A stretch of 38,602 nucleotides of DNA from a virus, in the IMG/VR virus record IMGVR_UViG_3300036866_000012, positions 1 through 38,602 of that record; one strand, 5' to 3'. Position 1 is the first letter of the stretch. Every line of letters begins with the position of its first letter. A program made the position numbers and the translations under genes. Positions 1,922 through 38,602 of this stretch are shown one piece after another. The notes under the pieces are model-generated. The model ran no database searches, was not told the DNA's origin, and saw only the letters and a list, made by a program, of their open reading frames with translations.

Positions 1922-2004
1922 ACATTGTGGCGTGGGTGATCGTGATAGGTGCGTTGGTGCTCTGCATCGCGGTATCGTGGGCACACGGAAAGGGACGCGT
2001 GTGA
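1918..2004 (+). CDS. 28-residue single-span membrane peptide
   Basis: ATG at 1918 overlaps the minor head protein stop (ATGA). The ORF ends at TGA 2002-2004, which overlaps a GTG start (GTGA) of the next gene. The peptide MNIVAWVIVIGALVLCIAVS is followed by WAHGKGRV. That is a hydrophobic stretch of about 19 residues with a basic tail, as in a single transmembrane helix with its C-terminus in the cytoplasm. Perfect stop/start coupling on both sides supports translation. Its role is unknown. It could be a small membrane effector, or mainly a coupling ORF. Confidence 0.55.
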   Translation: MNIVAWVIVIGALVLCIAVSWAHGKGRV

Positions 2005-5000
2005 TTTACTACAGAACAAAAGACTACGTCATGAAGGCAGCCGTTGACAAGAGCGGCGGCGTCATGGTCGCACTACAGGTGCCGCTCGACGTGGCAACGA
2101 AGCTGATCGTTGAGGGCGGACAGCCCGCGAACGACCTTCATATCACACTCGTCTACCTGGGCAAGTCCGATCAGTTCAACGCGAAGAAGATGCAGACGCT
2201 CCACGACATCGTCTCGTCGATCGCGAAGGAGTACACGCCGCTCGACATCACGCTGACCGGTTACGGTGTGTTCGCCGAGACCGATGACGGCCCGTGCCTG
2301 CACGCGGTGGTGGGGCTCAGCGATGCACTTGACTCGCTGCAAGAGACGGTGGCCGAGGCTGTCGCGAGCTACGGCATGCCCCCGCAAGGCAAGGGCTCGA
2401 TGAATGGGCAGTACAAGCCGCATATCACGCTGGCGTACGGTGAGAGCGCGGCTCCGCCCGAGGTTCCGCCTGTGACTGAGTTCAAGATTGAGTGGCTGCG
2501 TTCGACGTTCGGTGCTACCGAGGGTCTGTTCAGACTTCAGGGTACTCGGAAGTCGGTCATGATGAAAGCGGTGTTCGACGAGTCGCAGCATCCCCGCGAC
2601 GAGAGTGGTAAGTTCTCCGAGAGCGGCGGGGGTGAGGGCTCGCGTGTGTTCATGACCCCCGACGACGTGATCGAAGAGTCCACGTGGGGTGGCAAGAAGC
2701 AGTACGTGATCCGCGACCCGAAAACGGGTAAGGGCAGCGGGCGGCTTATCTCTGAGCCTGTCAACATCAAGAACGTACCCGAGACGCTGTACCACGCGAC
2801 GACGAACCTCCCCGCCGTTAAAGGCTCGGGGTATCTGCGGGCAGCGAGCGACGGCGGCGGAATGGGCGGCGGCAACGGCATGCCTGGTGTGTCGTTCACG
2901 ACGAGCAAGGCCGATGCGGAGCTAATGACGAAGGAACTACGCCGCACGGTGGACATCACGCACGAGGCACCCGATACTGCCGAAGCGATGAAGGCGAAAC
3001 TCGAAGGCTACGCCCGCGAGGACGAGAAGGCTGGTGGACTTCAGAAGGGTGACCTACAGCGGTCGGTTGACTACTCGCTGAGCAATTGGGAAGCCAACCA
3101 CAAGTCGTCGTCGCGCGAATGGAACGGCGAGAGTTGGGACACGTCCCCGGCGAAGGACCCTGAGAAGATGAAGGTCAGCATGCAACGGCTGGCGAAAGAG
3201 ACCTTCACTCAGTACCTTCAAGCTAGGGATATGGATTCTCAGAAACTCTTGAACACGAAAGGCGCTGACTTCCACCAGAACGACAAGTACGCGATGCTGA
3301 AGGACCCGCTTCTGTACGGGAGCGGTGAGGACTTCGCGAAGATGGACCCGGCGAAAATCGGCATTGTCACCACGAGCAAGAAGAACCTGCCGGGTCGGGC
3401 TCTCATTCGTGCCGGGTCCGATGACTTCCTACACGAGGTTCGTGTACACGCGGACGTGCCGCTTGAAACGGATACGGTGTACAAGGACGGCGAGGGTGGC
3501 TCCGGACTCACGGCTCCGACCGAGGGCGGCGGGACTCCGCTGATGTCGTTGAACCACGACAAGCGACGCAAGCCGATCGACGGTCAGGTGTACACGGCGT
3601 TCACGCCGGACGGCTCGCTGGGCACAGCCTCGTCGCCGGGCATCATGAAGGACGGCGCACCGGCAGGGATGGCGAGCGACAGCACGGCGGCGTTCGGCAC
3701 GAGCGACCTGAACAACGGGGGCCGCATCGCGCCAGAGCAGGGCATGTTCAAGAAGCCACGGCGCGCGAATAAGGCTGAGGTTGCGATTCCGGGGACCGAA
3801 AAGCACATGAGAGTTCTGGACGCGCACGGGTGGGAGTTCCACGCTAACGATCACGATTCGGTAGTGTACTCGAACCCTAAGAGTGACGATGAAGTTCGAG
3901 TGTGGTCATCCGGTCATTGGATTCGATACACCAAGGATCAGAAGGTTGTCTCTCAGGGTGACACGGACGTAGACCTGGGACAAAATCTCGGGGTGAAGAA
4001 GGACGAGTTCGGCGGCGGACAGGGTCAGGGCCAAGGGCTCGCGGTGGCGACCGCGCCCGAGTTCACGAAGCGGCCGGTGAAGCCGGAGTTCAAATTCGCT
4101 GGCGCGGTGGGGCCGAAGTTCGAGGACAAGGACGTGAACGGCGACCTGAAGAAAGAGGACCCGACGACGGGCGGCAACATGGCGATCAGTGCCGAGCCGA
4201 GCCCGGAGATGTCCGACGACCGTGAAGACAAGCTGCGAGCCGAGGATCGGCTGCGCAAGAGCGGCGGAGCCTGGCAGGCACCGAAGACCGAGGCGGGCGC
4301 ACAGCCAAGCATCCCGATGACGCAACAGGGCCGCAACCCTGAGCGTCATCACAACGATCCGCGCATGCGGGACAACGAACCGTTCACACCACCCGAGGGC
4401 ATCACGCAACCGATGGCGCTCTCCGAGTACCGGACGCCGAAGGTTCAGCGCACGGTGGACATGGTTGAGAACGGCGTACTCGTGGTGCGTCACACGTTCT
4501 ACGGCGACGACGATAAGACGGCGAAGCACATGGAAGACGCACACCGCGAGGCTGACGCGTCGCTCGATGCCTCGATGGACGGCAAGCCGTACAAGGACGT
4601 GGACATCACGGCAGTCCGCAAAGCTGAGGGTCCGGCTGTGATCCTGGCCCGACACGGCAGCACGGACTTCAATTCGGGTGCCGCCGAAGAAGGTGGGCCG
4701 CGCATTCGTGGCTGGATCGACGTTCCTCTGAATACCGAAGGACATGCGGATGCGAAGAGGGTGGCGGCGAAGATCGCGAAGGAATACCCGCACGTGGACG
4801 AGATTCACACGTCGGACTTGAGCCGAGCGGCTGATACCGCGCAGGCGATCAGTGACGCGCTCGGTGGTGTGCCGATCACGAAGACGCGGGACCTTCGTCC
4901 GTGGGACCTGGGCGATTACAATGGCAAGCCTGTCGAGGGCATCAAGGACAAACTCGACGCGCTCGTGATGAATCACAGCGAGAAGGCACCGAACGGAGAG

Positions 5001-5588
5001 TCATTCGATGACTTCATGGATCGCTTCTGCCCGTACCTCGAAGCTGCTCAGGCGGATGCGAAGAAGGGCAACAAGGTCATCGTGCTCGTGGCGCACACGC
5101 GTAACGTGCGCGCGGCTGAGGCTGTCTGCGATCGCGCGAAGATGACGCCGGAACTGATGATGGGACCGAACGACATCACCGAACCGGGTGAGTTCGCGGT
5201 GATGAAGCCGACCGGTGACGGGTGGGGGTTCAAGGTTGCGAAGGCGCACGACGCGGGGGTTCAGCCCGAGGCTCACGACGAGAAGCCGAAGTTCCCGGCT
5301 GGCGGTATCGCGCCCGGCACGGCGATCATCCGGGCCGAGGCTCCGGTTGTAAAGGTTGAGGCTCCTATCATCACTGTGTTGCCTGCTCCGGTCAACATCG
5401 TGAAAGCAGACAACGCCGAAGTCGTAGAGCGGCTGGGCGAGGTTATGAAGGAGATCAACATAATGAAAGCAGACAACACCGAGAGACTGAGCAGTCTCTT
5501 GAAAGCGCTGCTCCGAAAGAAGAAGCGAACGGTACAGTACGACGAACAGGGTAACATAACAGGCTCGATCGAAGAGGAGATGGAGTAA
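2001..5588 (+). CDS. giant multidomain protein: 2H phosphoesterase, ADP-ribosyltransferase-like region, histidine phosphatase
   Basis: I chose GTG 2001 because a GGAAAGGGA ribosome site lies just upstream and it overlaps the previous TGA; ATG 2031 is the alternative. The product is 1195 residues. Residues ~15-175 contain two HxT motifs, HIT at 47-49 and HIT at 141-143, the signature of 2H phosphoesterases (LigT / RNA-ligase-like fold). Near residue 197 is a DESQHPRDESGKFSE linker. Residues ~260-490 start with LYHATT (264) and PGVSFTTS (~298) and end with HEVRV (Glu 479), resembling an ADP-ribosyltransferase fold; this call is tentative. Residues ~600-662 form a small W-rich module. Residues ~878-1075 are a histidine phosphatase, with LARHGSTDFN (R884, H885, G886) and a second VAHTRN (H1032). 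The C-terminus is a coiled, Lys-rich tail. Such a combination next to head genes suggests a virion-associated enzyme, which is inference. Confidence 0.8.
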   Translation: MIYYRTKDYVMKAAVDKSGGVMVALQVPLDVATKLIVEGGQPANDLHITLVYLGKSDQFNAKKMQTLHDIVSSIAKEYTPLDITLTGYGVFAETDDGPCLHAVVGLSDALDSLQETVAEAVASYGMPPQGKGSMNGQYKPHITLAYGESAAPPEVPPVTEFKIEWLRSTFGATEGLFRLQGTRKSVMMKAVFDESQHPRDESGKFSESGGGEGSRVFMTPDDVIEESTWGGKKQYVIRDPKTGKGSGRLISEPVNIKNVPETLYHATTNLPAVKGSGYLRAASDGGGMGGGNGMPGVSFTTSKADAELMTKELRRTVDITHEAPDTAEAMKAKLEGYAREDEKAGGLQKGDLQRSVDYSLSNWEANHKSSSREWNGESWDTSPAKDPEKMKVSMQRLAKETFTQYLQARDMDSQKLLNTKGADFHQNDKYAMLKDPLLYGSGEDFAKMDPAKIGIVTTSKKNLPGRALIRAGSDDFLHEVRVHADVPLETDTVYKDGEGGSGLTAPTEGGGTPLMSLNHDKRRKPIDGQVYTAFTPDGSLGTASSPGIMKDGAPAGMASDSTAAFGTSDLNNGGRIAPEQGMFKKPRRANKAEVAIPGTEKHMRVLDAHGWEFHANDHDSVVYSNPKSDDEVRVWSSGHWIRYTKDQKVVSQGDTDVDLGQNLGVKKDEFGGGQGQGQGLAVATAPEFTKRPVKPEFKFAGAVGPKFEDKDVNGDLKKEDPTTGGNMAISAEPSPEMSDDREDKLRAEDRLRKSGGAWQAPKTEAGAQPSIPMTQQGRNPERHHNDPRMRDNEPFTPPEGITQPMALSEYRTPKVQRTVDMVENGVLVVRHTFYGDDDKTAKHMEDAHREADASLDASMDGKPYKDVDITAVRKAEGPAVILARHGSTDFNSGAAEEGGPRIRGWIDVPLNTEGHADAKRVAAKIAKEYPHVDEIHTSDLSRAADTAQAISDALGGVPITKTRDLRPWDLGDYNGKPVEGIKDKLDALVMNHSEKAPNGESFDDFMDRFCPYLEAAQADAKKGNKVIVLVAHTRNVRAAEAVCDRAKMTPELMMGPNDITEPGEFAVMKPTGDGWGFKVAKAHDAGVQPEAHDEKPKFPAGGIAPGTAIIRAEAPVVKVEAPIITVLPAPVNIVKADNAEVVERLGEVMKEINIMKADNTERLSSLLKALLRKKKRTVQYDEQGNITGSIEEEME

Positions 5589-6815: not shown

Positions 6816-6846
6816 AGTCCTGCGGCTCTCCTTGGGCCGCAGGATT
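6816..6846 (+). promoter_or_regulatory. hairpin covering the ribosome binding site of the next gene
   Basis: TCCTGCGGC (6818-6826) and GCCGCAGGA (6836-6844) form a perfect 9-bp stem with a 9-nt loop, extendable by a G-T and an A-T pair. The 3' arm contains CAGGA, the best Shine-Dalgarno-like sequence before ATG 6853. Folding would therefore hide the site. No T-run follows, so an intrinsic terminator is less likely than a translation control element, although partial termination is possible. Confidence 0.55.
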
Positions 6847-6852
6847 AAACAC

Positions 6853-8838
6853 ATGACCTTCCCGACTACGCAGCTTCTCGACAACTTCAACCGATCAGAC
6901 ATCGCGGCTCTTCCGAGTCCGTGGGCTAGTTGGTGGTCTCCCGGCAATACGTTTGAGAATTTTAATCAACATGCCGATTTTCTGATTCCGGGGACTGCGA
7001 CTGACTATCGCAGCAATGCGACTTACGGACCCGATTGTGAAGTTTGGTGTACGATCGCACAGGTTTCGAGTGGCGGCGGTAACATCACCATTTGGCTCCG
7101 TGGTGACAACGGTGGTGCTAGTGTTAGTGGTTACGGTCTTGAACTGACAGTCTCGGGCGGCGTCGCTACATTCAAGATCGGTGTCTACAACGCCACGAAC
7201 CCCGGCCCACAGGGCACGTTCGGGACGACCCTAGCGTCCACGACGCAAGCCTTTGCTAATGGTGATGGGGTTGGTTTCTCGGCGATTGGCACGACTCTCA
7301 CGGCGTGGTATCGCTCCGGTGCGTCCGGTGCGTGGACCGCTATCCTGACAACGACCGACAGCACGTACACCGCCGCAGGACGTTTAGCGATGACCGGCGT
7401 ACTCGCCAGCGGAACCAACTGGCAGATCGAAGACTTCGGCGGCGGCACGTTCGGCACCGTCCCTCAGCATACTCCGACAGGGCCGTCTGTTGGTTGCGGA
7501 GATCGACTCGCTCTCGAAGACGGCAGCGGCGTTGTGTTGCTCGAATACACAGCGCTGCTCACAGAAACCGATGGCGACATCGCACTCGAAACCCCGGCTG
7601 ACGGGTCGGGCGGTGGTGTTCTTCTCTTCGAGTGGGGTATCGATTCGCGGATGCTCGTCGAGAACCCCGATCCTTGGGGTATCATGCTCGAAGACCGCTC
7701 AGGCTTTCTACAAGCTGAGAGCGGCGGGACTGTCATCCTCGAAGAGGCGACGGTTGTAGACGGCCTTCAGCTTGAAAGCGGTGTAGGCAACCTCGAAGCC
7801 GAAGACGGTCGGACGATTCGGCTCGAAGAGATGCCGCGCGGACATGTTCTGTTGGAAGATAGTTCGGGCGCGCTGATCGAAGAAGACGGTTCTTCGTATA
7901 TCCTGCTCGATCAAGCACCGGACAGTAGCGACGCGTGCGATGGCATGCTGCTCGAAGACGGTAGCGGGTACATTCAGCTTAACAACCCGCGACCCTCGCC
8001 GACAGACGCGATCCTAGTCAACAACCGCGTCATCTCCGGGACAGCGAGCATCACGCAGCCCGCTGCGAGCCTCGATGCGGTGGGTACGGTTCCTGTCACT
8101 GGTACGGCGGATGTTACACAGCCCGCCGCGTCTCTTGACGCTGTTGCGGTGGAGCGCTTCACAGCTACGGGCTCTGTCACTCAACCGGCCGCATCGTTGG
8201 ACGCGACAGCGAAAGAGCGTTTCACGGCGACGGCTGATGTCACTCAGCCCGCTGCGAGCCTGGACGCGACGGCGAAGGAGCGTTTCACCGCCACGGCGAG
8301 CGTGACTCAACCCCCGGCGAGTCTCGATGCGGTTGCGAAGGAAAGATTCACCGCGAGCGCTGACGTAACACAACCAGCCGCTAGCTTGGACGCGGTAGCG
8401 AAGGAAAAATTCGTAGCAACCGCAAGCGTGACTCAGCCTGCGGCTTCTCTCGACGCGACGGCGAAAGAGCGGTTCGTGGCGTCTGGCTCTGTAACGGAGT
8501 CACCCGCAAGCCTGGACGCGTCGGGCACTGTAACCGAGACGGGTGTTGTCGGCGACGGTTCTGTGACACAACCGGCCGCGAGCCTGGACGCGATGGGTTC
8601 TGTCACTGTGACGAACGTCACAGGAACAGCATCGGTCACGCAACCGGCCGCGTCTCTCGACATGAACGGCAGTGTGACCAACCCGCCGAGTCCTCCCAAG
8701 GTTGTGTCCAACGGACCGGGCGGTGCGTATCCGTTGAAGCCGAGACGGCGTCCGGATTGGCTCGATCAGGTTGAACGTGAGCCACAAACGAAAACCAAAA
8801 AGACGGCGGCAGTACTACTTGAACTAGGAGTCCTATAA
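6853..8838 (+). CDS. lectin-like protein with two tandem-repeat regions (fibre or spike)
   Basis: ATG 6853 is preferred to an in-frame TTG at 6832, which lies inside the hairpin. The product is 661 residues. Residues ~1-205 look like a concanavalin/LamG-type beta sandwich (DNFNRSD... YGLELTVSGG... WQIEDFGGG). Residues ~217-378 hold short repeats of the LLEDGSGxIxLE type. Residues ~396-606 hold ten copies of a ~20-residue unit built on SVTQPAASLDA, most separated by VAKERFTAT-like spacers. A charged tail (PRRRPDW..., then KTKKTAAVLLELGVL) ends the protein. The order carbohydrate-binding-like head, then beta hairpins, then regular stalk fits an extended virion fibre. It lies among head genes rather than tail genes, so a head fibre is possible. 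Confidence 0.75.
   Translation: MTFPTTQLLDNFNRSDIAALPSPWASWWSPGNTFENFNQHADFLIPGTATDYRSNATYGPDCEVWCTIAQVSSGGGNITIWLRGDNGGASVSGYGLELTVSGGVATFKIGVYNATNPGPQGTFGTTLASTTQAFANGDGVGFSAIGTTLTAWYRSGASGAWTAILTTTDSTYTAAGRLAMTGVLASGTNWQIEDFGGGTFGTVPQHTPTGPSVGCGDRLALEDGSGVVLLEYTALLTETDGDIALETPADGSGGGVLLFEWGIDSRMLVENPDPWGIMLEDRSGFLQAESGGTVILEEATVVDGLQLESGVGNLEAEDGRTIRLEEMPRGHVLLEDSSGALIEEDGSSYILLDQAPDSSDACDGMLLEDGSGYIQLNNPRPSPTDAILVNNRVISGTASITQPAASLDAVGTVPVTGTADVTQPAASLDAVAVERFTATGSVTQPAASLDATAKERFTATADVTQPAASLDATAKERFTATASVTQPPASLDAVAKERFTASADVTQPAASLDAVAKEKFVATASVTQPAASLDATAKERFVASGSVTESPASLDASGTVTETGVVGDGSVTQPAASLDAMGSVTVTNVTGTASVTQPAASLDMNGSVTNPPSPPKVVSNGPGGAYPLKPRRRPDWLDQVEREPQTKTKKTAAVLLELGVL
7501..7985 (+). 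repeat. LLEDGSG-type short coding repeats
   Basis: The coding sequence repeats a short motif, seen as LALEDGSGVVLLE, IMLEDRSG, LLEDSSGALIEEDGSS and MLLEDGSGYIQL. The motif pairs a hydrophobic strand with a D-G-S-G turn, consistent with stacked beta hairpins. A closely related LLLQDGSG repeat occurs in the gene at 29803-30507, so the same repeat type is used in two virion proteins. Confidence 0.75.
8038..8670 (+). repeat. ten VTQPAASLDA coding repeats
   Basis: Ten copies of (T/S)x(S/D)(V/I)TQPAASLDA are arranged in tandem; copies 5 and 8 vary (QPPASLD, ESPASLD). Copies 2-7 have a full spacer of the type VAKERFTAT, giving a ~20-residue period; others have shorter Gly/Val spacers. The DNA copies differ at many third positions while the protein is conserved. 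This suggests selection on the protein rather than a very recent DNA amplification. Confidence 0.9.
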
Positions 8839-10847
8839 TGGACATCATCGAAAAAGAGTGGAACGAGGCAGATCACCCGCGCGAGCCGAAAGGCACAGCG
8901 GCGGGTGGACGGTTTGCCGGGGGCGGTGGCCCGAATGCCGGGCCAGGGTGGGCGAATCTCGGCGATGGCGTGATGGGGCCGACCGGGCACCCGATGAACG
9001 ACGTGACGTGGGACGCTGTACCCGGTCATGATCAGTTCAACGTGCGCGAAAAGTTCTTGCAAGATTGGGTCGGTTGGGCGAAGAAGCACGGCCCCGACGA
9101 CTGGAAGTTGAATACGCTCGTGGACCGCGCCGCCGACAAGTGGGACTCCATGAGCGCAGCCGACAAAATCTCCTACGCTCGTCGCCTGCCCGCCGATATG
9201 TTCGAGCGACCCGCACAGGTGGGCGACCTGGGCACCGAGAAACCGCTCGCGCCGGGTCTGCCGTCCGACCAGCTAGGCGAAGAGCCTCGTGCCGGACACC
9301 CCGAGGGCGGAAAGACCGAAGATCAGCCCGAGCCTGAGCAGGAAGCCTTCAGCACGGGCGCGGAGCCTCAGGCTGAAGAAGATGAAGGTCCTACCCCACA
9401 GCCCGAAGAGTGGGGCGAGTTGAACGGCAGACAGCAAGATCGGGTATACGAGAAGTGGAAGGAAGAAACCCACGACGACTTCGTGCGCGATAACGTTGAA
9501 ATGTGGCGCGAAGACGAGTCCAACTTTGAGGGCATTCCGAAGGAAGTAGCTGAGGACTCAGATTTCGGTGAGCAGGAGTTGAAGGACATCAACAACGGCT
9601 ATTATCCTGGTGAGCGTCCGGCCGGTATCGATGACAGCGGTGGCGGAACACCGGCTGCGCACGACGAAGAGAATCAGCGAGCAGCGGCGTGGCGGGACCA
9701 CTTCGCGATCGATGACTCGTTTCAGAACGGCGCATTCTCGTGGGACGACGAGGGCAACCTTTCCGTGGACACTGACAAGCTGGTGTTCCGCGACAACCCG
9801 CACGAGGGACCCGAGGCTGAGCGTCAGCAATTGATCCCCGGCGTGTCGCGTGAAGAGATGTCGAGCGCGTACAAGAAGGCCGAGTGGGCAAAGGTGAAGG
9901 ACGACTTCGAGGAGCAGTTCAAGGAGAAGTTCGAGGCTGAGGTTCAGTCTCGAACCGAGAAGCTGAAGGAGAACCCGCCCGACTACCTCGAAGACGTTGA
10001 CGAATATCAGTCCGAGGCGTGGGACAACATGGACGACCGCGAGAAGTGGCGTCATGCGAAGAATTACCTGTCTGACTTACAGGGCGACGGTGGCGACGAG
10101 TCAGGTGGGTCGCGCGGTGAGGGTATTGCAGGTACGGTCGGACCGAGCGCGGAAGACGCGCCCGAGCAGAAGAAGATTCAGAAGCTAGAGCCTGTGTCGA
10201 AAAAGAACCTGGGCGGCGGGGTCAGTGTGTCGAAGATCGTGACCATGAAGGACGGCTCGAAATTCGTGTGGAAACCAAGCACGGGTGAGGCGAATGTTCG
10301 CGACGGCATCGAGGCAGGAGTGCAGTACCAGCGTGAGGTAGCCGCGTATGACATTGCGAAGGTGGTTGGAATGAAGAACCTGATGCCGGTGTCGTCGATC
10401 GTGAAGTACGAGGGGAACTACGGGGTCATGATGCAGATGATCCCGCACGCGCACAACGACGGCACCGAAGGTGACTCGGAATTCGAGAACACGGCGAAGC
10501 GTGGAACGATCTTCGACTTCGTGATCGGCAACACCGATCGACACGGGGCCAACTGGATGTCCGACGACAACGGCAAGTTGTGGTTGATCGACCACGGACT
10601 TTCGTTTTCCACGGGCGGCGATCGTGTGCGGTTCGGGCTGTGGGGTAGTGCCGTGCACGACACGAACAACGATGATGCGATCACCGAGGCGTTCGTTAAG
10701 CCGTGGCGTGGGAAGTGGGACAAGATCGAAACGATCCTAGAGCGACGGCATATCGAGAGCGACGCGGTCGAAGCTGCGAAGGAACGATATGATCTACTGA
10801 TGCGAAAAGGCGTCACGTGGCGAGACCTATTCGAGCACGGGGAGTGA
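8838..10847 (+). CDS. large acidic protein with C-terminal HipA/PI3-4-kinase-like domain
   Basis: The 669-residue product starts in a TAATG overlap. Residues ~8-30 (EADHPREPKGTAAGGRFAGGGG) are a variant of the HPRDxxGKF linker found in two neighbours. Residues ~130-450 are strongly charged, Glu-rich and probably helical or disordered. Residues ~460-669 resemble an atypical kinase. There is FVWKP with candidate ATP-binding K479, a glutamate in QREVAAYD (E500), a catalytic-loop-like FVIGNTDRHGANWM (D567, H569, N572), and LWLIDHGLSF with metal-binding-like D585. This arrangement matches HipA / PI3-4-kinase-like folds. The substrate is unknown. Proximity to capsid genes and the shared linker suggest the kinase is packaged or virion-bound; that is inference. 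Confidence 0.8.
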   Translation: MDIIEKEWNEADHPREPKGTAAGGRFAGGGGPNAGPGWANLGDGVMGPTGHPMNDVTWDAVPGHDQFNVREKFLQDWVGWAKKHGPDDWKLNTLVDRAADKWDSMSAADKISYARRLPADMFERPAQVGDLGTEKPLAPGLPSDQLGEEPRAGHPEGGKTEDQPEPEQEAFSTGAEPQAEEDEGPTPQPEEWGELNGRQQDRVYEKWKEETHDDFVRDNVEMWREDESNFEGIPKEVAEDSDFGEQELKDINNGYYPGERPAGIDDSGGGTPAAHDEENQRAAAWRDHFAIDDSFQNGAFSWDDEGNLSVDTDKLVFRDNPHEGPEAERQQLIPGVSREEMSSAYKKAEWAKVKDDFEEQFKEKFEAEVQSRTEKLKENPPDYLEDVDEYQSEAWDNMDDREKWRHAKNYLSDLQGDGGDESGGSRGEGIAGTVGPSAEDAPEQKKIQKLEPVSKKNLGGGVSVSKIVTMKDGSKFVWKPSTGEANVRDGIEAGVQYQREVAAYDIAKVVGMKNLMPVSSIVKYEGNYGVMMQMIPHAHNDGTEGDSEFENTAKRGTIFDFVIGNTDRHGANWMSDDNGKLWLIDHGLSFSTGGDRVRFGLWGSAVHDTNNDDAITEAFVKPWRGKWDKIETILERRHIESDAVEAAKERYDLLMRKGVTWRDLFEHGE

Positions 10848-13690
10848 TGATGAAAGCGATCGTCTACGGCTACTCTGGTGACAAACATGTAACGTTGGGT
10901 GAGATTCGTCTGCGAGGCGACAAACTCGTGTATGCAATTCATCCCAATGCGGGCAACCACGACCGGGCGCGCGACGTGCTCTCGACGATGATCAAGGAGG
11001 GCATGGGCTCCGACCCGAAGGTGTGGCTGAAGTACTTGCCTCACATGTACTCGGGGACGTACCTCCGGGCGAAGTTCGTGGACGACCTACCGCCGATCCA
11101 GCCGCGACACGGGTTGCACTGGCCGAAGCACTTCGAGCCCGCGACGGTGGCGAAGGAGTTCAACCCGGACCAGCCGCGCGACGAGTCTGGCAAGTGGACG
11201 AGCGGTGGCGGAAGTGTGCGTGCTCAGCAAGCGGCGTCGGACTACATGAAGGGCCGGGGTGAGACCTACACTCCGCCGACGAAGCAACCGTACGACGAGA
11301 AGCGCGCGGCACAGGTGGCCGACGCGTACGACAAGATGCCGAACACACCGAACGACCCGGAGACGCTGGACAGCTACCACGCGATGGCTGACGAGTCGGC
11401 GGCGCAGTACCACGCGATGGCGAAGACCGGCATGAAGGTTGAGGCTGTCGCGCCGGGCCAGCCGGACCCGTACAAGAACGCCGACGAGATGATCAAGGAC
11501 GCAGTCGAGAACAACCACATGTGGTACTACCCGACCACGAGCGGATTCGGGCCTGAGGGTGCGACGGCGGATCAGCGGTTGCCGATGCTTCAGGACTCGG
11601 GCATCAAGGACTCGAACGGACGGCCGATGCTGAAGAACGACGTGTTCCGGGTGGTGCACGACTATTTTGGACACGTGAAGGACAACAACAACTTCCGGCC
11701 GGAGGGCGAAGAGGCCGCATGGCGATCGCACTCGGGCATGTTCTCGCCGAAGGCTCGCCGGGTGATGACGACCGAGACGCGCGGGCAGACCAATTGGGTG
11801 TACTACGGCCCGTACGGCGAGCAGAACCGCAACGCCAAGGACTCGGCCGGGGTCCGGTTCGCGGACCAGAAGATCGGACTGCTCCCTGAAGAGTACGTGT
11901 ACAAGGCGTTCGACGAGGCTCAGCACCCGCGCGACGATGCGGGCAAGTTCTCCGAAGCCGGTGGCGCAGGCATCGCGCGCACGGACTGGCAGGCGAGCCC
12001 GTCTGCCGAGACGTTCATCGCCGAGCGGGACAAGAACCCGCGCCGGGACTTCATGAGCCACCTGAACCCCGAGGACCTAAAGGACAGCAAGATCATTCTG
12101 AGCGAGGACGGCAAGGCCGGAGCCACGGTCGCACCGGACGGGGACATTCAGAACGTGTTCCGCAACCCCGGTGCTCCGAAAGGCTCCGGGACTGCGGCGG
12201 CGCTCGAAGCGGTCAAGCACGGCGGCAAGATGCTCGACTGCTACGACTACGAACGCAAAGGGCGCGAGGGCCTGCCCGACGTGTACCGCAAGGCGGGGTT
12301 CGTCGAGACCGGGCGCATGAAGTTCAACCCGGCCTACCGACCGGATTGGGAGGGCCAGGGCCGAACCCCCGACGTGGTCTTCATGGCCTACGTGGGCGGC
12401 GACCAGTCTGCGAGCCCGAAGTCCGACCGCTACTACGGCAGCACAGAGTGGGACAAAGCCAAGGAAGACAGCAAGGCTGCGGCGAAGCCGCCACGCACCG
12501 CGAAGGCTCTGACCCTCGATGACGAGAACAAAAAAATCGCAGAGAACAAGAAGCGGTGGCAGTACCGCACGCACCGGTTCGCTCCGGCCAACTTCACCGC
12601 TGGCAACGGACACCCCCGGTGCATTCGTTGCGGGGACGAGGAGCCGGTGGACGGGCTCTGCATCCCGAGCCTGAAGAAGTGGGACCGGATGCTGACAGCC
12701 TGGACCGAGAAGTTCGAGAGTGATTGGAATGGTACAATAGACTCAGGAGGGAATATGTCGGCCGGTTGGATCGCTCAATTCCACTCGAAATGCATCGAAA
12801 AGGGTGCGGTCTGCAAAGTCGCGTGGCCTGCCTGCCCTGTCGGCAAGTCCGACACGATCGCCAAGTACATCACCGGTCACAACGGCAAGTTCCAAGTGCA
12901 TGCCGAGTCTGGCAAAGTGCTCGGGACGCACGACACGAAAGCCGACGCCGAGGCTCAGCTTCGAGCGATCGAGGCGCACAAGCACGGCACCGGTAAGGAC
13001 GTTCAGTGGCCGGTCGAACCGAGCACACCGGGCTACGGAAAGAAGCCTCTCCAAGGCGAGAAGGCCCCCAATCAGAAGAGCGAAGAGATCGCACTGGACG
13101 ACGCTACGATCGATGCTCTGAAGTCGGCATGGCAAGCATTTGCCAAGTCCATCGGACTCGTGTTCAAAAGCGAGGACGTGATGGCCGAGCCGATCGACAC
13201 GAACGTCTACCGCATCGAGGCTGTAGGAAAGCGCGCGTACTTCCTGGCCGAGGGCGGCAAGGCTGAGCGGATCGAGTACCATCGCAAGGATGCGTTCGTC
13301 ACAGTGCAAAAGTCCGAGAAGATGCGATACACGCTGGGCGCGGTCTACGCGCCGGGCGAGGTTGACTTCCACGGCGATACGATGACCGAGGCCGAGTTGG
13401 AGAAAGCGGCTTGGGCATTCGCGAAGAAGGACGGGCTCACGAAGCGCGTGGGTCTGATGCACCAGAGCGGCACCGATGGCGCGGGCGACATCGTCGAGTC
13501 GTACATCTATCGCGGCCCGGAGTGGAAGTTCAAGGACACGAAGGGCAACGAACAGACGATCGTGCCGGGTACCTGGATGTTGGGCACCGTGTGGACGCCT
13601 GAGTCCTGGACAAAAATCGAGCGCGGCGCAGTGAACGGATATTCGCTCCAAGGTGTCGCGAGAAAGTTCGCGAACGGAGAGGAAGTGTAA
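10847..13690 (+). CDS. multidomain head protein: conserved phage domain, GNAT-like region, XkdF-like prohead protease
   Basis: ATG 10847 overlaps the previous stop (TGATG), giving 947 residues. Residues 1-100 are unrecognised. A first linker, FNPDQPRDESGKWTSGGG, lies at ~104-121. Residues ~130-353 (from DYMKGRGETYTPPT, through NNHMWYYPTTSGFG, HDYFGHV and TETRGQTNW to LPEEYVY) match a domain I have seen in phage virion proteins but cannot name. A second linker (FDEAQHPRDDAGKFSE) is at ~355-370. Residues ~405-518 are GNAT-like (NPGAPKGSGTAAALEAV, LPDVYRKAGFVETGRMKFN). CIRC...LC near residue 595 may bind zinc. Residues ~825-940 resemble the XkdF-type prohead serine protease (YTLGAVYAPGEVDFHGD, LMHQSG with H872, GYSLQGVARK with S933). 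It should process the procapsid. A strong internal start can make the protease part alone. Confidence 0.82.
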   Translation: MMKAIVYGYSGDKHVTLGEIRLRGDKLVYAIHPNAGNHDRARDVLSTMIKEGMGSDPKVWLKYLPHMYSGTYLRAKFVDDLPPIQPRHGLHWPKHFEPATVAKEFNPDQPRDESGKWTSGGGSVRAQQAASDYMKGRGETYTPPTKQPYDEKRAAQVADAYDKMPNTPNDPETLDSYHAMADESAAQYHAMAKTGMKVEAVAPGQPDPYKNADEMIKDAVENNHMWYYPTTSGFGPEGATADQRLPMLQDSGIKDSNGRPMLKNDVFRVVHDYFGHVKDNNNFRPEGEEAAWRSHSGMFSPKARRVMTTETRGQTNWVYYGPYGEQNRNAKDSAGVRFADQKIGLLPEEYVYKAFDEAQHPRDDAGKFSEAGGAGIARTDWQASPSAETFIAERDKNPRRDFMSHLNPEDLKDSKIILSEDGKAGATVAPDGDIQNVFRNPGAPKGSGTAAALEAVKHGGKMLDCYDYERKGREGLPDVYRKAGFVETGRMKFNPAYRPDWEGQGRTPDVVFMAYVGGDQSASPKSDRYYGSTEWDKAKEDSKAAAKPPRTAKALTLDDENKKIAENKKRWQYRTHRFAPANFTAGNGHPRCIRCGDEEPVDGLCIPSLKKWDRMLTAWTEKFESDWNGTIDSGGNMSAGWIAQFHSKCIEKGAVCKVAWPACPVGKSDTIAKYITGHNGKFQVHAESGKVLGTHDTKADAEAQLRAIEAHKHGTGKDVQWPVEPSTPGYGKKPLQGEKAPNQKSEEIALDDATIDALKSAWQAFAKSIGLVFKSEDVMAEPIDTNVYRIEAVGKRAYFLAEGGKAERIEYHRKDAFVTVQKSEKMRYTLGAVYAPGEVDFHGDTMTEAELEKAAWAFAKKDGLTKRVGLMHQSGTDGAGDIVESYIYRGPEWKFKDTKGNEQTIVPGTWMLGTVWTPESWTKIERGAVNGYSLQGVARKFANGEEV
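12730..12750 (+). promoter_or_regulatory. internal extended -10 promoter-like box and strong ribosome site
   Basis: TGGTACAAT (12730-12738) fits an extended -10 element (TGnTAnAAT) and is identical to boxes before the scaffold and tail tube genes. It is followed by a perfect AGGAGG at 12745-12750, four bases before an in-frame ATG at 12755. Transcription starting about 7 bases after the box would give a very short leader. I found no clear -35 box. The element is inside an open coding frame. Confidence 0.6.
12755..13690 (+). CDS. nested XkdF-like prohead protease from an internal start
   Basis: ATG 12755 is in frame with the large upstream gene and would make a 311-residue protein (MSAGWIAQFHSKCIEKGAVC...). 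It contains the segment GKVLGTHDTKADAEAQL and the whole protease domain. In this numbering the candidate catalytic residues are H236 and S297. The AGGAGG site with ideal spacing is stronger than that of almost any other gene here, and a promoter-like box precedes it. A free protease of ~310 residues matches the usual size of this family. Two readings are possible. The phage may make both the fused and the free form. Or the upstream gene may have lost its stop codon recently. Confidence 0.7.
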   Translation: MSAGWIAQFHSKCIEKGAVCKVAWPACPVGKSDTIAKYITGHNGKFQVHAESGKVLGTHDTKADAEAQLRAIEAHKHGTGKDVQWPVEPSTPGYGKKPLQGEKAPNQKSEEIALDDATIDALKSAWQAFAKSIGLVFKSEDVMAEPIDTNVYRIEAVGKRAYFLAEGGKAERIEYHRKDAFVTVQKSEKMRYTLGAVYAPGEVDFHGDTMTEAELEKAAWAFAKKDGLTKRVGLMHQSGTDGAGDIVESYIYRGPEWKFKDTKGNEQTIVPGTWMLGTVWTPESWTKIERGAVNGYSLQGVARKFANGEEV

Positions 13691-35227: not shown

Positions 35228-36718
35228 ATGACCCCTTCGACGATCGATGTTGGTGCTATTTGGTCTAGGCTGAAAGGCCCGTACGATCAGACTGCGCTGA
35301 TCAAGGAAACGCTGACGCTCGACTCTCCGGGCGCGGCGTACTTGCGTTGGGGTGACGGTAAGACGCGGTTCCTCAAAGTGGGGGACACGTTCCTGGCCGG
35401 TCTCACGTGGCGAGTGATACGTGCCCTCGTGGACGGGGGCTTCCCGAAGCCGGTGGTCCGCTGGCCGCTCGTCATGGAGAAACGTCCGCTCACCCCGACT
35501 CCAATCCCTGTGCGTCCTGAGGATCAAGAACCTGCGATCGAGAAGATGATCCGGGCTCGACGCTTGGGGCTCGAACACCCGACCGGTGGCGGCAAGACAC
35601 GCATCGGCATCGAGGCTGCGCGGCGCATCGGACATCGCACGCTGTGGCTCACGCACACCAAGGACCTACTTTCGCAGACGGTCGAACGCTTCGAGGAACT
35701 GCTCGACATCGAGTGCGGTGTGCTCGGTGCGGGCAAGGACATCCCCGGAGACGGCCGCGTCGTCGTCGCCATGACTCAGACGCTCGGCCGCATGCTCGAC
35801 GAGAAGCGCGGCGCGCCTGAGATCGTCAAGCCGTACCTCGCTGAATTCGGGTGCGTAATCGCCGACGAAGGACACCACGCGTCGGCGGACTCGTGGCAAG
35901 AAATCCTTATGCAGTGTACGTCGGCTCAGTACCGGTTTGCTCTGAGTGCGACGCTGGGGGCCATCCCCGAGCCGGTGAATCAGTTCAAGATCGAGGGAGC
36001 ATTCGGCCCGACGTGGCGAACCACGTCCGTGTCCGGACTCGCTGACCTGGGGTTCCTCGCCAAGCCACGAATGATTGTTCTCTGCCCACCGTCCACGTCC
36101 TACCCCACCTATGAAGACATCCGCGACTTCATCTGCCCGACTTGGCGAGAGAACCCCCGTCAGTTGAGAACGCTCGGTGCTCTGATGTTCAAGGAGATGT
36201 ACGAGCGCGGCATCGTTGAAAACGACTCACGGAACCAACTGCTCCTCGAAGTCATCTGCCGACACGTGGCGCAGAATGAGAAGGTGTTGGTTCTGTGCTC
36301 GCGGGTCCCGCACATGGAGCTACTATGGTCCGCGCTGAACGCCCGACTCGGGCAGGCCCCGGTGTGGGGCATGGACGGCAACGCTCCCGACCGGCCGCGC
36401 ACCTTGGCTCAGTTCAGGCGCGCCGAGGGTGCCGCTGTCCTGATCGCAACCCCGTTCGCCCGAGAGGGTATCGACCTACCCCAAGTAGACGTTGGGGTCA
36501 TGGCGGGTGGCGGGCTCAGCGACACGGCGGTGATGCAAGGGCTCGGCCGCATGCTGAGGAAGCGACCGGGCAAGGACGAGGTTCTGATCTATGACTGCCG
36601 GGACGGCGGCAACACCGGGACCGAGCGCGAGGATAAGGATTGGCTCGGGAACCATTGGGGTAGCCGCTTCGCCCTGTATGATGCTCAGGGGTTCACCATC
36701 GAAGAGTGGAGGGGCTGA
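35228..36718 (+). CDS. SF2 helicase
   Basis: The 496-residue product has the ordered SF2 motifs. Walker A is PTGGGKT at 118-124. Motif Ia (LTHTKDLLSQT) follows, then the Walker B variant ADEGHH at 212-217 (DEGH rather than DEAD/DEAH). Motif III is SAT at 240-242, and the C-terminal motifs are AREGIDLP (411-418) and MQGLGRMLRK (436-445). The N-terminal ~110 residues include TFLAGLTWRVIRALVDGGFP and a long linker. Similar phage enzymes (T4 UvsW type) unwind branched DNA in recombination and replication. It opens the replication module and is coupled by TGATG to the zinc-finger gene. Confidence 0.88.
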   Translation: MTPSTIDVGAIWSRLKGPYDQTALIKETLTLDSPGAAYLRWGDGKTRFLKVGDTFLAGLTWRVIRALVDGGFPKPVVRWPLVMEKRPLTPTPIPVRPEDQEPAIEKMIRARRLGLEHPTGGGKTRIGIEAARRIGHRTLWLTHTKDLLSQTVERFEELLDIECGVLGAGKDIPGDGRVVVAMTQTLGRMLDEKRGAPEIVKPYLAEFGCVIADEGHHASADSWQEILMQCTSAQYRFALSATLGAIPEPVNQFKIEGAFGPTWRTTSVSGLADLGFLAKPRMIVLCPPSTSYPTYEDIRDFICPTWRENPRQLRTLGALMFKEMYERGIVENDSRNQLLLEVICRHVAQNEKVLVLCSRVPHMELLWSALNARLGQAPVWGMDGNAPDRPRTLAQFRRAEGAAVLIATPFAREGIDLPQVDVGVMAGGGLSDTAVMQGLGRMLRKRPGKDEVLIYDCRDGGNTGTEREDKDWLGNHWGSRFALYDAQGFTIEEWRG

Positions 36719-37563
36719 TGGCTCTATCGTGTCAGCACTGCGGCAAGGGTGTGAACAGCCTGGATCGAAAGGCCAAGCACGAGCGGGTCTGCGGGATGGG
36801 CGCACCCACTACATCTAGCGGTCACACTCGGTCACACTCCACAAGCGAGTCACAAAAGTGTGACCAACCTAGTGTGACCGAAGAAACCTCTAACACTAAC
36901 ACAGAGTTGCCGGTCACACAAGCGCCCGAGTCACACAGTGTGACCCTCAGCACTACCGAGTCTCCTTCTGAAGTGCAAGGGGTCACACGGTCACAAAAGT
37001 GTGACCGGGAGTGTGACCCGCTCGAAGAAGTCAAGGACGCCGTCGTCTATCTCAACGCGCGCCGTGACTACCTGGACCGGTGGGAGCTAGGGTTCATCGG
37101 CTCGATGGTCTTCATCGTCCTGAGCAAGACGAACGGGGACCGGGCGCGCCATCTGACGCCGGACATGGTCGGGAAGCTGTTCGAGACCAAGGCGAAGGTC
37201 GAAGCCTTGGAAGCGAGAGACAAGGCCGAGGCCGAATACGACAGAGTTCAAAGGCATTTCTCCGACATAAACAAACCGGGGCACGTCTGGTGTGACCTGT
37301 GTGAGAAGAACAAGCGAGAGCGGGCTCAGGCGGAGATCGATCGGGTTGAGTTGGAAAAGCGGGACGCCGAGATTCTTGCACAGACTCGTCTACAGGCGAT
37401 CGCTGAGGGTCGAATCGACGAACACGGCAATCGCCTAGAAGTCACCAGGATCGAAAGAAACCCGCTCACCGCTGTGAGGTACCGGGAGATGGCGAGAAAG
37501 CGGCTAGCCGCCCGGAATGCGGCGACGCCTGGGGCTGAAAATGGGAGACCGACAGATGCCTGA
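36718..37563 (+). CDS. zinc-finger protein whose coding sequence carries a DNA-site cluster
   Basis: ATG 36718 overlaps the helicase stop (TGATG), giving 281 residues. The N-terminus MALSCQHCGKGVNSLDRKAK is followed by HERVC, with C5, C8, H21 and C25 placed like a C2HC zinc finger. Residues ~35-100 are Ser/Thr-rich (SGHTRSHSTSESQKCDQPSV, GVTRSQKCDRECDPL). They look shaped by the DNA repeat GGTCACAC/GTGTGACC rather than by protein needs. The C-terminal ~180 residues are helical with charged coiled coil (AKVEALEARDKAEAEYDRVQ) and a WCDLC pair. Between a helicase and DnaB, it may be an origin-binding or replication-loading protein; this is inference. Confidence 0.72.
   Translation: MALSCQHCGKGVNSLDRKAKHERVCGMGAPTTSSGHTRSHSTSESQKCDQPSVTEETSNTNTELPVTQAPESHSVTLSTTESPSEVQGVTRSQKCDRECDPLEEVKDAVVYLNARRDYLDRWELGFIGSMVFIVLSKTNGDRARHLTPDMVGKLFETKAKVEALEARDKAEAEYDRVQRHFSDINKPGHVWCDLCEKNKRERAQAEIDRVELEKRDAEILAQTRLQAIAEGRIDEHGNRLEVTRIERNPLTAVRYREMARKRLAARNAATPGAENGRPTDA
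36820..37018 (+). repeat. cluster of twelve GGTCACAC / GTGTGACC sites
   Basis: Within 199 bases I count twelve copies of the 8-mer or its 6-7 base core, in both orientations. Forward sites start at 36820, 36830, 36849 (core GTCACA), 36912, 36930 (GTCACAC), 36981 and 36989 (GGTCACA). Reverse sites start at 36858, 36872, 36938, 36999 and 37011. Three pairs form dyads: GTCACA-AAAG-TGTGAC (36849-36864), GTCACA-CAG-TGTGAC (36930-36944) and GTCACA-AAAG-TGTGAC (36990-37005). A further GTGTGACC is at 37290. Iteron or operator arrays look like this. Confidence 0.85.
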
Positions 37564-38602
37564 GCGGGTGTGGAGCGACGGTCTAGCCCGGCAGGTTATC
37601 GCTGAGGCTGTGTACGGGGACCTGATCAAGAGCCTGCCCGGAGCATTCACGCCGGAGTTGTTCGGCGAGGCTTCGAGCCCGAGGGCTCGGATCGCGGCGG
37701 TGATCGCAGCGTACGTCGAGGCCAACGGGGGTCGTCCGCCCGTGAGCTACCTGGACACCCTGATCGAGCGGGCGATAGAGGATAGGACCGACGCGGAGAA
37801 GGAAGCAATCGGCAACGAATGGGACATGGTACTGGCGACCGAGGTTGCCGAGAACGCCGACCCGATCTATCAGGAGGTTCGAGAGTGGATCGAGTTCAGG
37901 CGCATGGAGCAGACGCTACTCGACGCATCTGAGTCGCTGGGCACCGATGGCCCCGAGGCTGCTCGGGAAGCCTTGTCGAAGTTCCAGCCGGTGCGTGCGG
38001 AGAATGAGGGCCGTATTCTCCGCTTCATCGGTGACGTGGCCGACCGGCTCGAAGCGTGGCGAACGGGCGACATCATGGGCGAGCGCATCCCGACTGGGTT
38101 CCGTGTGCTCGACAATGAGACGGGCGGCGGACCCGCGCGCAAGGAGACGTGGTTCTTCCTCGCGCCGCCGAAGGGCGGTAAGACGACGTTCCTGCTCAAC
38201 GTCGCGAAGGAGGGCATGACCCGAGGCAAGAACGTCTTCCTGAACACGTACGAGATGCAGGACGTTCGCATGCTGTACCGACTCGATCAGTGGGTGTCGA
38301 AGACAGGGCGGCAGGACTTGCTCACGACCGATGATCGGTTCGGCCGGATCGATCGGTTGGAGAAAACGATCCAGGGACTCCGCGCGTCAGGGGCCGGGGA
38401 AATTTTCGTGAAGACGCGCCGCACCGGAGAGAAGGCCAGCGTCCGCATGGTGGAGCAGGACATCAAGCGTATGCGTGACGAGGGCATCAAGATCGACGTG
38501 GTGATCTTCGACTATCTGAACATCATGGGCTCGATCAAGAGCGAGCGCGAAGTGCGGCACATTCTGTACGCGACGGCATACGAGATGGCGGACCTGGCGA
38601 AG
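37556..38602 (+). CDS. DnaB-like replicative helicase (3' end outside window)
   Basis: ATG 37556 overlaps the previous gene by 8 bases, and the frame is open to the window edge (349 residues seen). Residues ~1-160 form a helical N-terminal domain. The RecA-like domain begins near 178 with IPTGFRVLDNETGGG. Walker A is APPKGGKTT at 203-211 (unusual PPKGGKT instead of GxPxxGKT), NVFLNTYEMQ follows near 226-235, and Walker B is DVVIFDYLN at 314-322. REVRHILYATAYEMADLAK at the edge matches the conserved DnaB stretch before the lost C-terminus. It would unwind DNA at the phage fork. Confidence 0.85.
   Translation, partial: MPERVWSDGLARQVIAEAVYGDLIKSLPGAFTPELFGEASSPRARIAAVIAAYVEANGGRPPVSYLDTLIERAIEDRTDAEKEAIGNEWDMVLATEVAENADPIYQEVREWIEFRRMEQTLLDASESLGTDGPEAAREALSKFQPVRAENEGRILRFIGDVADRLEAWRTGDIMGERIPTGFRVLDNETGGGPARKETWFFLAPPKGGKTTFLLNVAKEGMTRGKNVFLNTYEMQDVRMLYRLDQWVSKTGRQDLLTTDDRFGRIDRLEKTIQGLRASGAGEIFVKTRRTGEKASVRMVEQDIKRMRDEGIKIDVVIFDYLNIMGSIKSEREVRHILYATAYEMADLAK

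Follow-up and report, generated by a model that had tools for sequence, protein, structure and literature searches.

The question raised by this locus is why a gene of a viral replication module should carry a dense series of short DNA sites in both orientations, and which process such sites would serve. We addressed it in a stretch of 38,602 nucleotides from an environmental bacterial virus (hereafter the window; positions 1 to 38,602 of IMG/VR virus record IMGVR_UViG_3300036866_000012). A preliminary description, made from the sequence of the window alone, had noted twelve copies of an 8-mer or its core within the gene of a zinc-finger protein, and had proposed that they form either an iteron-type replication origin or a self-regulating operator bound by the protein encoded around it.

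An array of short sites between two helicase genes

The genomic context given in that description was borne out, with an SF2 helicase gene upstream, the gene for the putative finger protein around the array and a dnaB gene downstream. The features of the region are the following:

35228..36718, + strand: SF2 (ResIII/DEAD) helicase (Pfam ResIII 7.5e-21, Helicase_C 4.6e-10; PHROG DNA helicase 4.7e-60)
36718..37563, + strand: array gene, 281 aa, with finger, predicted disordered linker and helical C-terminus (translation, AlphaFold2 models, ortholog L012:5136-6008)
36730..36792, + strand: candidate C2HC zinc finger, C5-x2-C8-x12-H21-x3-C25 (CQHCGKGVNSLDRKAKHERVC; ligand pattern)
36820..37018, both orientations: array of 12 GTCACA sites, 9 of them exact GGTCACAC (site counts)
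36820..36879: module 1, sites at 36820+, 36830+, 36848+, 36858- and 36872-, dyad GTCACA-AAAG-TGTGAC (sequence)
36854..36893: most AT-rich 40 bp near the array, candidate strand-opening stretch (GC 0.425, lowest 0.9% of the window)
36912..36945: module 2, sites at 36912+, 36929+ and 36938-, dyad GTCACA-CAG-TGTGAC (sequence)
36981..37018: module 3, sites at 36981+, 36989+, 36999- and 37011-, dyad GTCACA-AAAG-TGTGAC (sequence)
37018..37560, + strand: helical C-terminal region, aa 101-281, with a His/CxxC motif at about aa 189-195 (L012 alignment, AlphaFold2)
37290..37297, - strand: outlying exact GGTCACAC, over the second Cys motif codons of the array gene (site search)
37556..38602, + strand: DnaB-like replicative helicase, running off the window (Pfam DnaB_C 8.5e-12; PHROG DnaB-like 2.7e-36)

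The start of the array gene overlaps the helicase stop codon by 1 base and its end falls within the start region of dnaB; the array itself, composed of 8-bp units in three sets, lies about 540 bp 5' of the dnaB start in the adjoining gene. The dnaB gene is complete in contig L009 (3956-5332), where it is followed on its 3' side by a gene for a Toprim primase (Pfam Toprim_2; PHROG primase 8e-37). Only DnaB_C/AAA profiles matched the DnaB-like helicase, the N-terminal part of which is without a profile match, and these profiles revealed no additional DNA-binding domain in it.

Counting of the sites confirmed the twelve copies, the two orientations and the three close dyads previously described, the twelve GTCACA/TGTGAC cores lying within 199 bp of the window sequence (36820-37018). 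Nine of the twelve are exact GGTCACAC/GTGTGACC, two contain one mismatch (AGTCACAC and GGTCACAA) and one contains two (AGTCACAA). Adjacent sites are spaced 8-18 bp, and they are grouped into three modules with about 40 bp between them, each with a convergent dyad at its centre (spacers of 4, 3 and 4 bp), such that the orientation along the array reads +++-- / ++- / ++--. The array is only moderately low in GC (0.543 versus 0.609; lowest 4.3% of sequence windows), and GC skew is positive in nearly every sequence window, with no switch at the array, and is uninformative as regards an origin.

Outside the array exact GGTCACAC occurs only twice in the 38.6 kb of the window, at 8672 and, within the array's own gene, at 37290; a 99.2%-identical contig of 36.8 kb, which overlaps the last 5 kb of the window and runs on from it, contains two further exact copies. 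The genome-wide count proposed in the preliminary description thus found the 8-mer not to be frequent elsewhere, and its one-mismatch matches across the window are at chance level (46 versus 44.6 expected). Against a background of 0.09 cores per 199 bp the clustering is extreme (Poisson probability of at least 12 cores about 4e-22), and the array is the strongest 6-mer cluster anywhere in the window. Over 3000 rounds of random synonymous recoding, with the peptide fixed and the codon usage of the phage retained, the sites averaged 1.24 and never exceeded 6, versus the 12 observed; when the codon order was shuffled they averaged 0.5 and numbered 4 at most. The sites occupy three frames as well as both strands, and the peptides they encode are unrelated (GHT, RSH, KCD, SVT and PVT). 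As they occur in all three reading frames, the array sites are under selection as DNA and not as peptide, just as had been supposed from their appearance. The array shows no substitutions among 99%-identical strains, though only about 1.5 would be expected.

A repeat at the level of the protein can produce such cores, and a real example is present in the window at 8400-8700, where SVTQPAASLDA-type peptides give rise to four of them. For the array, a protein repeat or chance is a negligible explanation, being ruled out by the use of three frames and both strands with unrelated peptides, by the recoding and shuffling results and by the Poisson clustering. The tandem-like peptide repeats at 8400-8700 lie near the C-terminus of the 668-aa product of a gene at 6832-8838, and the second GTCACA cluster of the window (8562-8678) was set aside as peptide repeats.

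The array gene, its relative and its replacement

The zinc finger of the preliminary description stands as a ligand pattern, C-x2-C-x12-H-x3-C, and not as a recognised domain, since the best Pfam fingers for the array-gene protein were below threshold. The array encodes approximately aa 35-101 of the 281, and most of aa 14-98 is predicted to be disordered (pLDDT about 30 in AlphaFold2 models based on the two available sequences); as part of reading the whole locus as an origin, we consider it probable that this array-coded peptide is only a flexible linker. The C-terminal region, folded alone, reached a mean pLDDT of 77 (AlphaFold2, two sequences). The protein had no family match in Pfam, PHROG or NCBIfam, including their O-like, DnaD-like and other initiator profiles, no profile match to an AAA+ P-loop of the DnaC-like loader kind and no PDB sequence match, and its C-terminus had no PDB fold match at E <= 0.001 and hence none marking an initiator or loader. 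Searches with tblastn using the whole protein or the C-terminus against phages and plasmids gave only chance matches (E >= 5) and no relatives, an alignment of the C-terminus found no match in about 800 bacterial genomes of two phyla, a negative that is uninformative, and nothing specific on the array motif or on a finger-type phage initiator was found in the literature.

Scanning of genome contigs with primase and helicase alignments recovered no close relatives, and a search with DnaB found one other relative lineage only, L012/L013, so that the array gene is known from just two independent lineages. The L013 contig (G001, 101821 bases) has an exact terminal repeat of 123 bp, on account of which the genome of this relative appears to be complete at about 101.7 kb. 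Identity between the window and this lineage amounts to 54% for DnaB, 59% for the SF2 helicase and 68% for the primase; the array-gene protein and its L012 counterpart (L012:5136-6008) are only 24% identical overall, making it the fastest-changing of the four proteins compared at the locus. Only its C-terminus aligns clearly between the two, at 26% identity (tblastn 7e-5), and the L012 finger has the pattern C-x2-C-x12-H-x1-C, in which the fourth ligand is displaced relative to that of the window.

The same linker of the L012 gene contains a different array, with 10 GGTCAGG and 11 GGGTCA in 276 bp, again in both orientations and three frames, for which synonymous recoding gave a mean of 0.67 GGGTCA. 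Ten of the 18 GGGTCAGG copies of the 101.8 kb genome of the relative sit in this array. The units of the two arrays have GGTCA in common, and neither unit nor peptide is otherwise conserved. The most AT-rich 40 bp falls within the array in both the window and L012 (lowest 0.9% and 0.12% of the respective sequences), at only 57-65% A+T. The preliminary description had named relatives that keep the peptide and lose the sites as the outcome adverse to its proposal; the opposite was found, in that L012 loses both the peptide and the exact unit and keeps an array. As far as two lineages can be compared, turnover of unit and peptide with retention of the array would fit what is expected of a site array co-evolving with its reader.

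The inverted copies could alternatively act in the mRNA as hairpins, and the folding z-scores of -7.4 for the window and -5.0 for the L012 relative accord with this. However, RNA hairpins follow automatically when sites are inverted, and any array with both orientations folds in this manner. The predicted folds of the two phages differ by eye, the dyad spacers are 3-4 bp in the window versus 6 and 13 in L012, many of the sites are direct repeats and similar arrays in other phages are intergenic, all of which makes an RNA-level element hardly tenable.

In more distant modules (L015, L025, L031/L037 and L039) a winged-helix gene and a DnaC-like loader gene are present at or near the slot of the array gene. 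In the three modules tested, L039 being outside these, the winged-helix genes show weak matches to O-like/DnaD-like initiator PHROGs; the loader matches PHROG profiles at up to 4.9e-14 and in L039 was assigned by sequence similarity. No 6-mer cluster above shuffles was found at any of these loci. Array and finger gene thus co-occur in two of two lineages and are both missing from four of four distant modules, which have module, neighbours and slot in common with the window but contain two genes of different folds, with a short-site array undetected, in place of one finger-array gene. Judged by these sequence comparisons, a cassette exchange has taken place, with related modules carrying an O-like initiator and a DnaC-like loader in the slot of the array gene. 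Its position in the module makes it probable that the finger gene acts as initiator, as loader or in both roles.

These comparisons also bear on the second of the readings originally offered, namely that the protein binds its own gene as an operator and represses or roadblocks transcription of the replication operon. Intragenic site arrays can act as roadblocks, and the protein has a putative DNA-binding finger. However, the array starts about 100 bp into its gene, which itself begins on the stop codon of the gene upstream and so leaves no room for a promoter before the array; nor was a sigma-70-like promoter found anywhere in 35.0-38.6 kb. Twelve sites in three modules exceed the need of a simple repressor, and the counterpart at this position in relatives is an initiator with a loader rather than a repressor. 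With no space for a promoter ahead of an array that lies within an operon gene, operator function loses weight, and we regard it as distinctly improbable. Of the two original proposals, it is therefore the origin that gains, from the position in the replication module and from the L012 array, and the operator that is weakened.

Comparable arrays near replication genes in other phages

Scanning of viral contigs for the pattern GTCACAC-GTGTGAC-GTGTGAC recovered 85 stretches (L064-L143), about half of which have at least six cores in 250 bp, are often locally AT-richer and have the common consensus TGTCACAC. Spacings of 7-13, 18-24, 43-45 and 54-55 bp are repeated in the GTCACA arrays of these contigs, which recur in many unrelated phages beside prim-pol, VapE-like and AAA_25 helicase genes. 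Among 63 flanking genes at most 10 matched one primase family, 8 were VapE-like, 8 matched DUF5906, 6 AAA_25 and 5 Prim-Pol (these families overlap), while the flanks of weak clusters, an imperfect control, gave at most 2 matches per family. In four cases the sites lie within a gene that matches replication initiation protein families:

L131:6747-7541: 6 GTCACA sites inside the gene, which adjoins a DnaC-like loader
L094:658-1218: 4 sites inside the gene, just 3' of its winged helix; the gene adjoins dnaB
L140:4758-5156: 4 GTCACA cores inside the gene
L137:1128-1847: 3 GTCACA cores inside the gene

To avoid selection by motif, we also picked 14 isolated phages or phage genomes by helicase/primase homology alone. 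In seven of them (L149, L150, L151, L155, L156, L157 and L160) an array with both orientations lies no more than about 130 bp from the 3' end of the helicase/primase gene and exceeds all 40 shuffles. Each consists of 9-15 copies of a 6-8 bp word:

Rhizobium 16-3 and RHph_X2_25: unit GCGTGACA
Alteromonas PB15: unit GGTTCA
Roseobacter CRP-823: unit ACTACAA
Paenibacillus NHScienceFair: unit CTGCAAC
Corynebacterium SamW: unit GGGACA
Rhodobacter RcWhiteOak: unit GTGAGA

An eighth phage, ctyzp037, has an array 1.4 kb away; phi2958PVL and BcepNY3 have visible arrays that are not significant, and the remainder of the 14 have none or coding repeats. The array of V16, inside the helicase gene, looks like coding repeats, and that of phage 1358 was likewise rejected, as a Thr-rich gene there contains most of the copies in a single frame. 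The short-word arrays beside the helicase/primase genes of the seven isolated phages are likely to be unannotated origins.

Packaging, partition, recombination and host evasion are further DNA-level roles to consider, as functions of this sort likewise employ short repeated sites, and some GTCACA clusters of the viral contigs are indeed found near terminases as well. Against such a role, the array lies between helicase and dnaB in both lineages, partition genes were not noticed in the window and similar arrays track primase/helicase genes; we consider it very improbable.

The identity of the protein that binds the array is the main uncertainty. The occurrence of GTCACA arrays near unrelated replication proteins means that a different, perhaps host, protein could bind, and the recurrence of the same core could point to a common reader. 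The array would then still be an origin, read by a protein of the host or by a different replication protein of the phage, with the finger protein serving, for example, as a loader or as an ssDNA-binding accessory. A finger gene was not noticed beside the recurring arrays in an unsystematic look, and a lone finger would read 8 bp only weakly, so that recognition of a site of this length by one finger would be unusual. On the other side, the sister phage, despite helicases and a primase that are 54-68% identical, uses GGGTCAGG, and the reader must therefore have changed its specificity. The change of unit in L012 argues for a phage-encoded, fast-evolving reader, and the finger protein is the one that changes fastest; furthermore, isolated phages of similar layout each use a unit of their own. 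Overall we find a different binder unlikely.

A proposed origin within a replication gene

Based on these observations we propose, with a probability of roughly two in three, that the array is an iteron-type replication origin inside a replication gene, and that the finger protein most likely binds it, opens the DNA and helps to place DnaB. An origin is favoured because of the position in the replication module, the density of sites beyond what chance or the peptide would give, the predicted disorder of the linker, the AT-rich 40 bp within both arrays, the array of L012, the exchange with an initiator and loader and the occurrence of short-site arrays in unrelated phages next to their helicase/primase genes. 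Evidence against this reading comes from the sub-threshold finger and its shifted fourth ligand in L012, the small number of lineages (two), the lack of a GC-skew switch, a C-terminus whose fold matches neither initiator nor loader, the unusual prospect of one finger reading 8 bp, the GTCACA arrays near unrelated replication proteins and the only moderately low GC of the array. We infer the following course of events for the origin. A DNA-binding protein, most likely the array-encoded finger protein or a complex containing it, would bind the 8-bp sites, and the bound proteins would form a multi-copy complex over the three dyad-centred modules. The AT-richer stretch inside the array would then be opened, and the DnaB-like helicase encoded immediately downstream would be placed there with the help of the finger protein, after which the phage primase would start synthesis.

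A bolder version, which we put forward tentatively and hold to be possible rather than probable, is that a new kind of initiator, a single-finger protein with the origin in its own gene, replaces on its own both an O-like initiator and a DnaC-like loader in a module that is otherwise conserved, and that the unit turns over together with the finger, amounting to a private origin code for each phage lineage. An intragenic origin of short iterons is of a kind known from phages; what is probably new is that the initiator slot is here occupied by a finger protein that is unusual and matches no known family.

Several characterised systems resemble this arrangement in part. In phage P4 the short type I iterons of ori1/crr are bound by the alpha primase-helicase. 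The window has short iterons in common with P4, in which they are read by a replication protein, but an alpha-type fused primase-helicase was not seen in its module and its array is intragenic. The iterons of phage lambda are about 19 bp, and the N-terminus of its O protein is DNA-binding. Four of these iterons and an AT-rich tract lie mid-gene in the initiator gene O (PMC7466680). In both lambda O and the array gene the repeats form part of the sequence encoding a replication protein; they separate a putative DNA-binding N-terminus from the C-terminus and encode a flexible linker peptide, and helicase functions are adjacent. Lambda differs in having few and longer iterons and an O protein without a finger, as against twelve 8-bp sites in both orientations and a putative C2HC finger in the window, where moreover the phage itself encodes DnaB and a separate loader gene was not seen beside the array gene. 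As no initiator profile matches its product, the array gene is laid out like lambda O without being a member of the O family.

In PICIs/SaPIs an array of short iterons beside the initiator/helicase gene is an experimentally tested origin (PMC6092414, PMC7581432). Common to these origins and the window are short iterons in sets, grouped around an AT-richer stretch (PMC6092414, PMC7581432), and the isolated phages with arrays beside helicase/primase genes resemble them in layout. The PICI/SaPI array lies between genes, and the Rep helicase recognises it through its C-terminal domain, whereas that of the window is inside the finger-protein gene and is associated with a DnaB-like helicase.

If the proposal is true, a finger-type protein joins the short list of phage initiator folds, and an initiator and loader have been swapped for one gene within a module. 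The two related phages would further constitute a natural pair with different origin codes, in which the match of finger to site is directly testable. Origins would then be detectable from sequence as places where a private word of 6-8 bp is clustered in both orientations inside or just 3' of an initiator, helicase or primase gene.

As for the remainder of the window, Rfam and tRNA scans gave no matches, and two long genes, at 1932-5588 (1218 aa) and 10817-13690 (957 aa), match head maturation protease and RNA ligase profiles over part of their length; their products are possibly multi-domain structural proteins.
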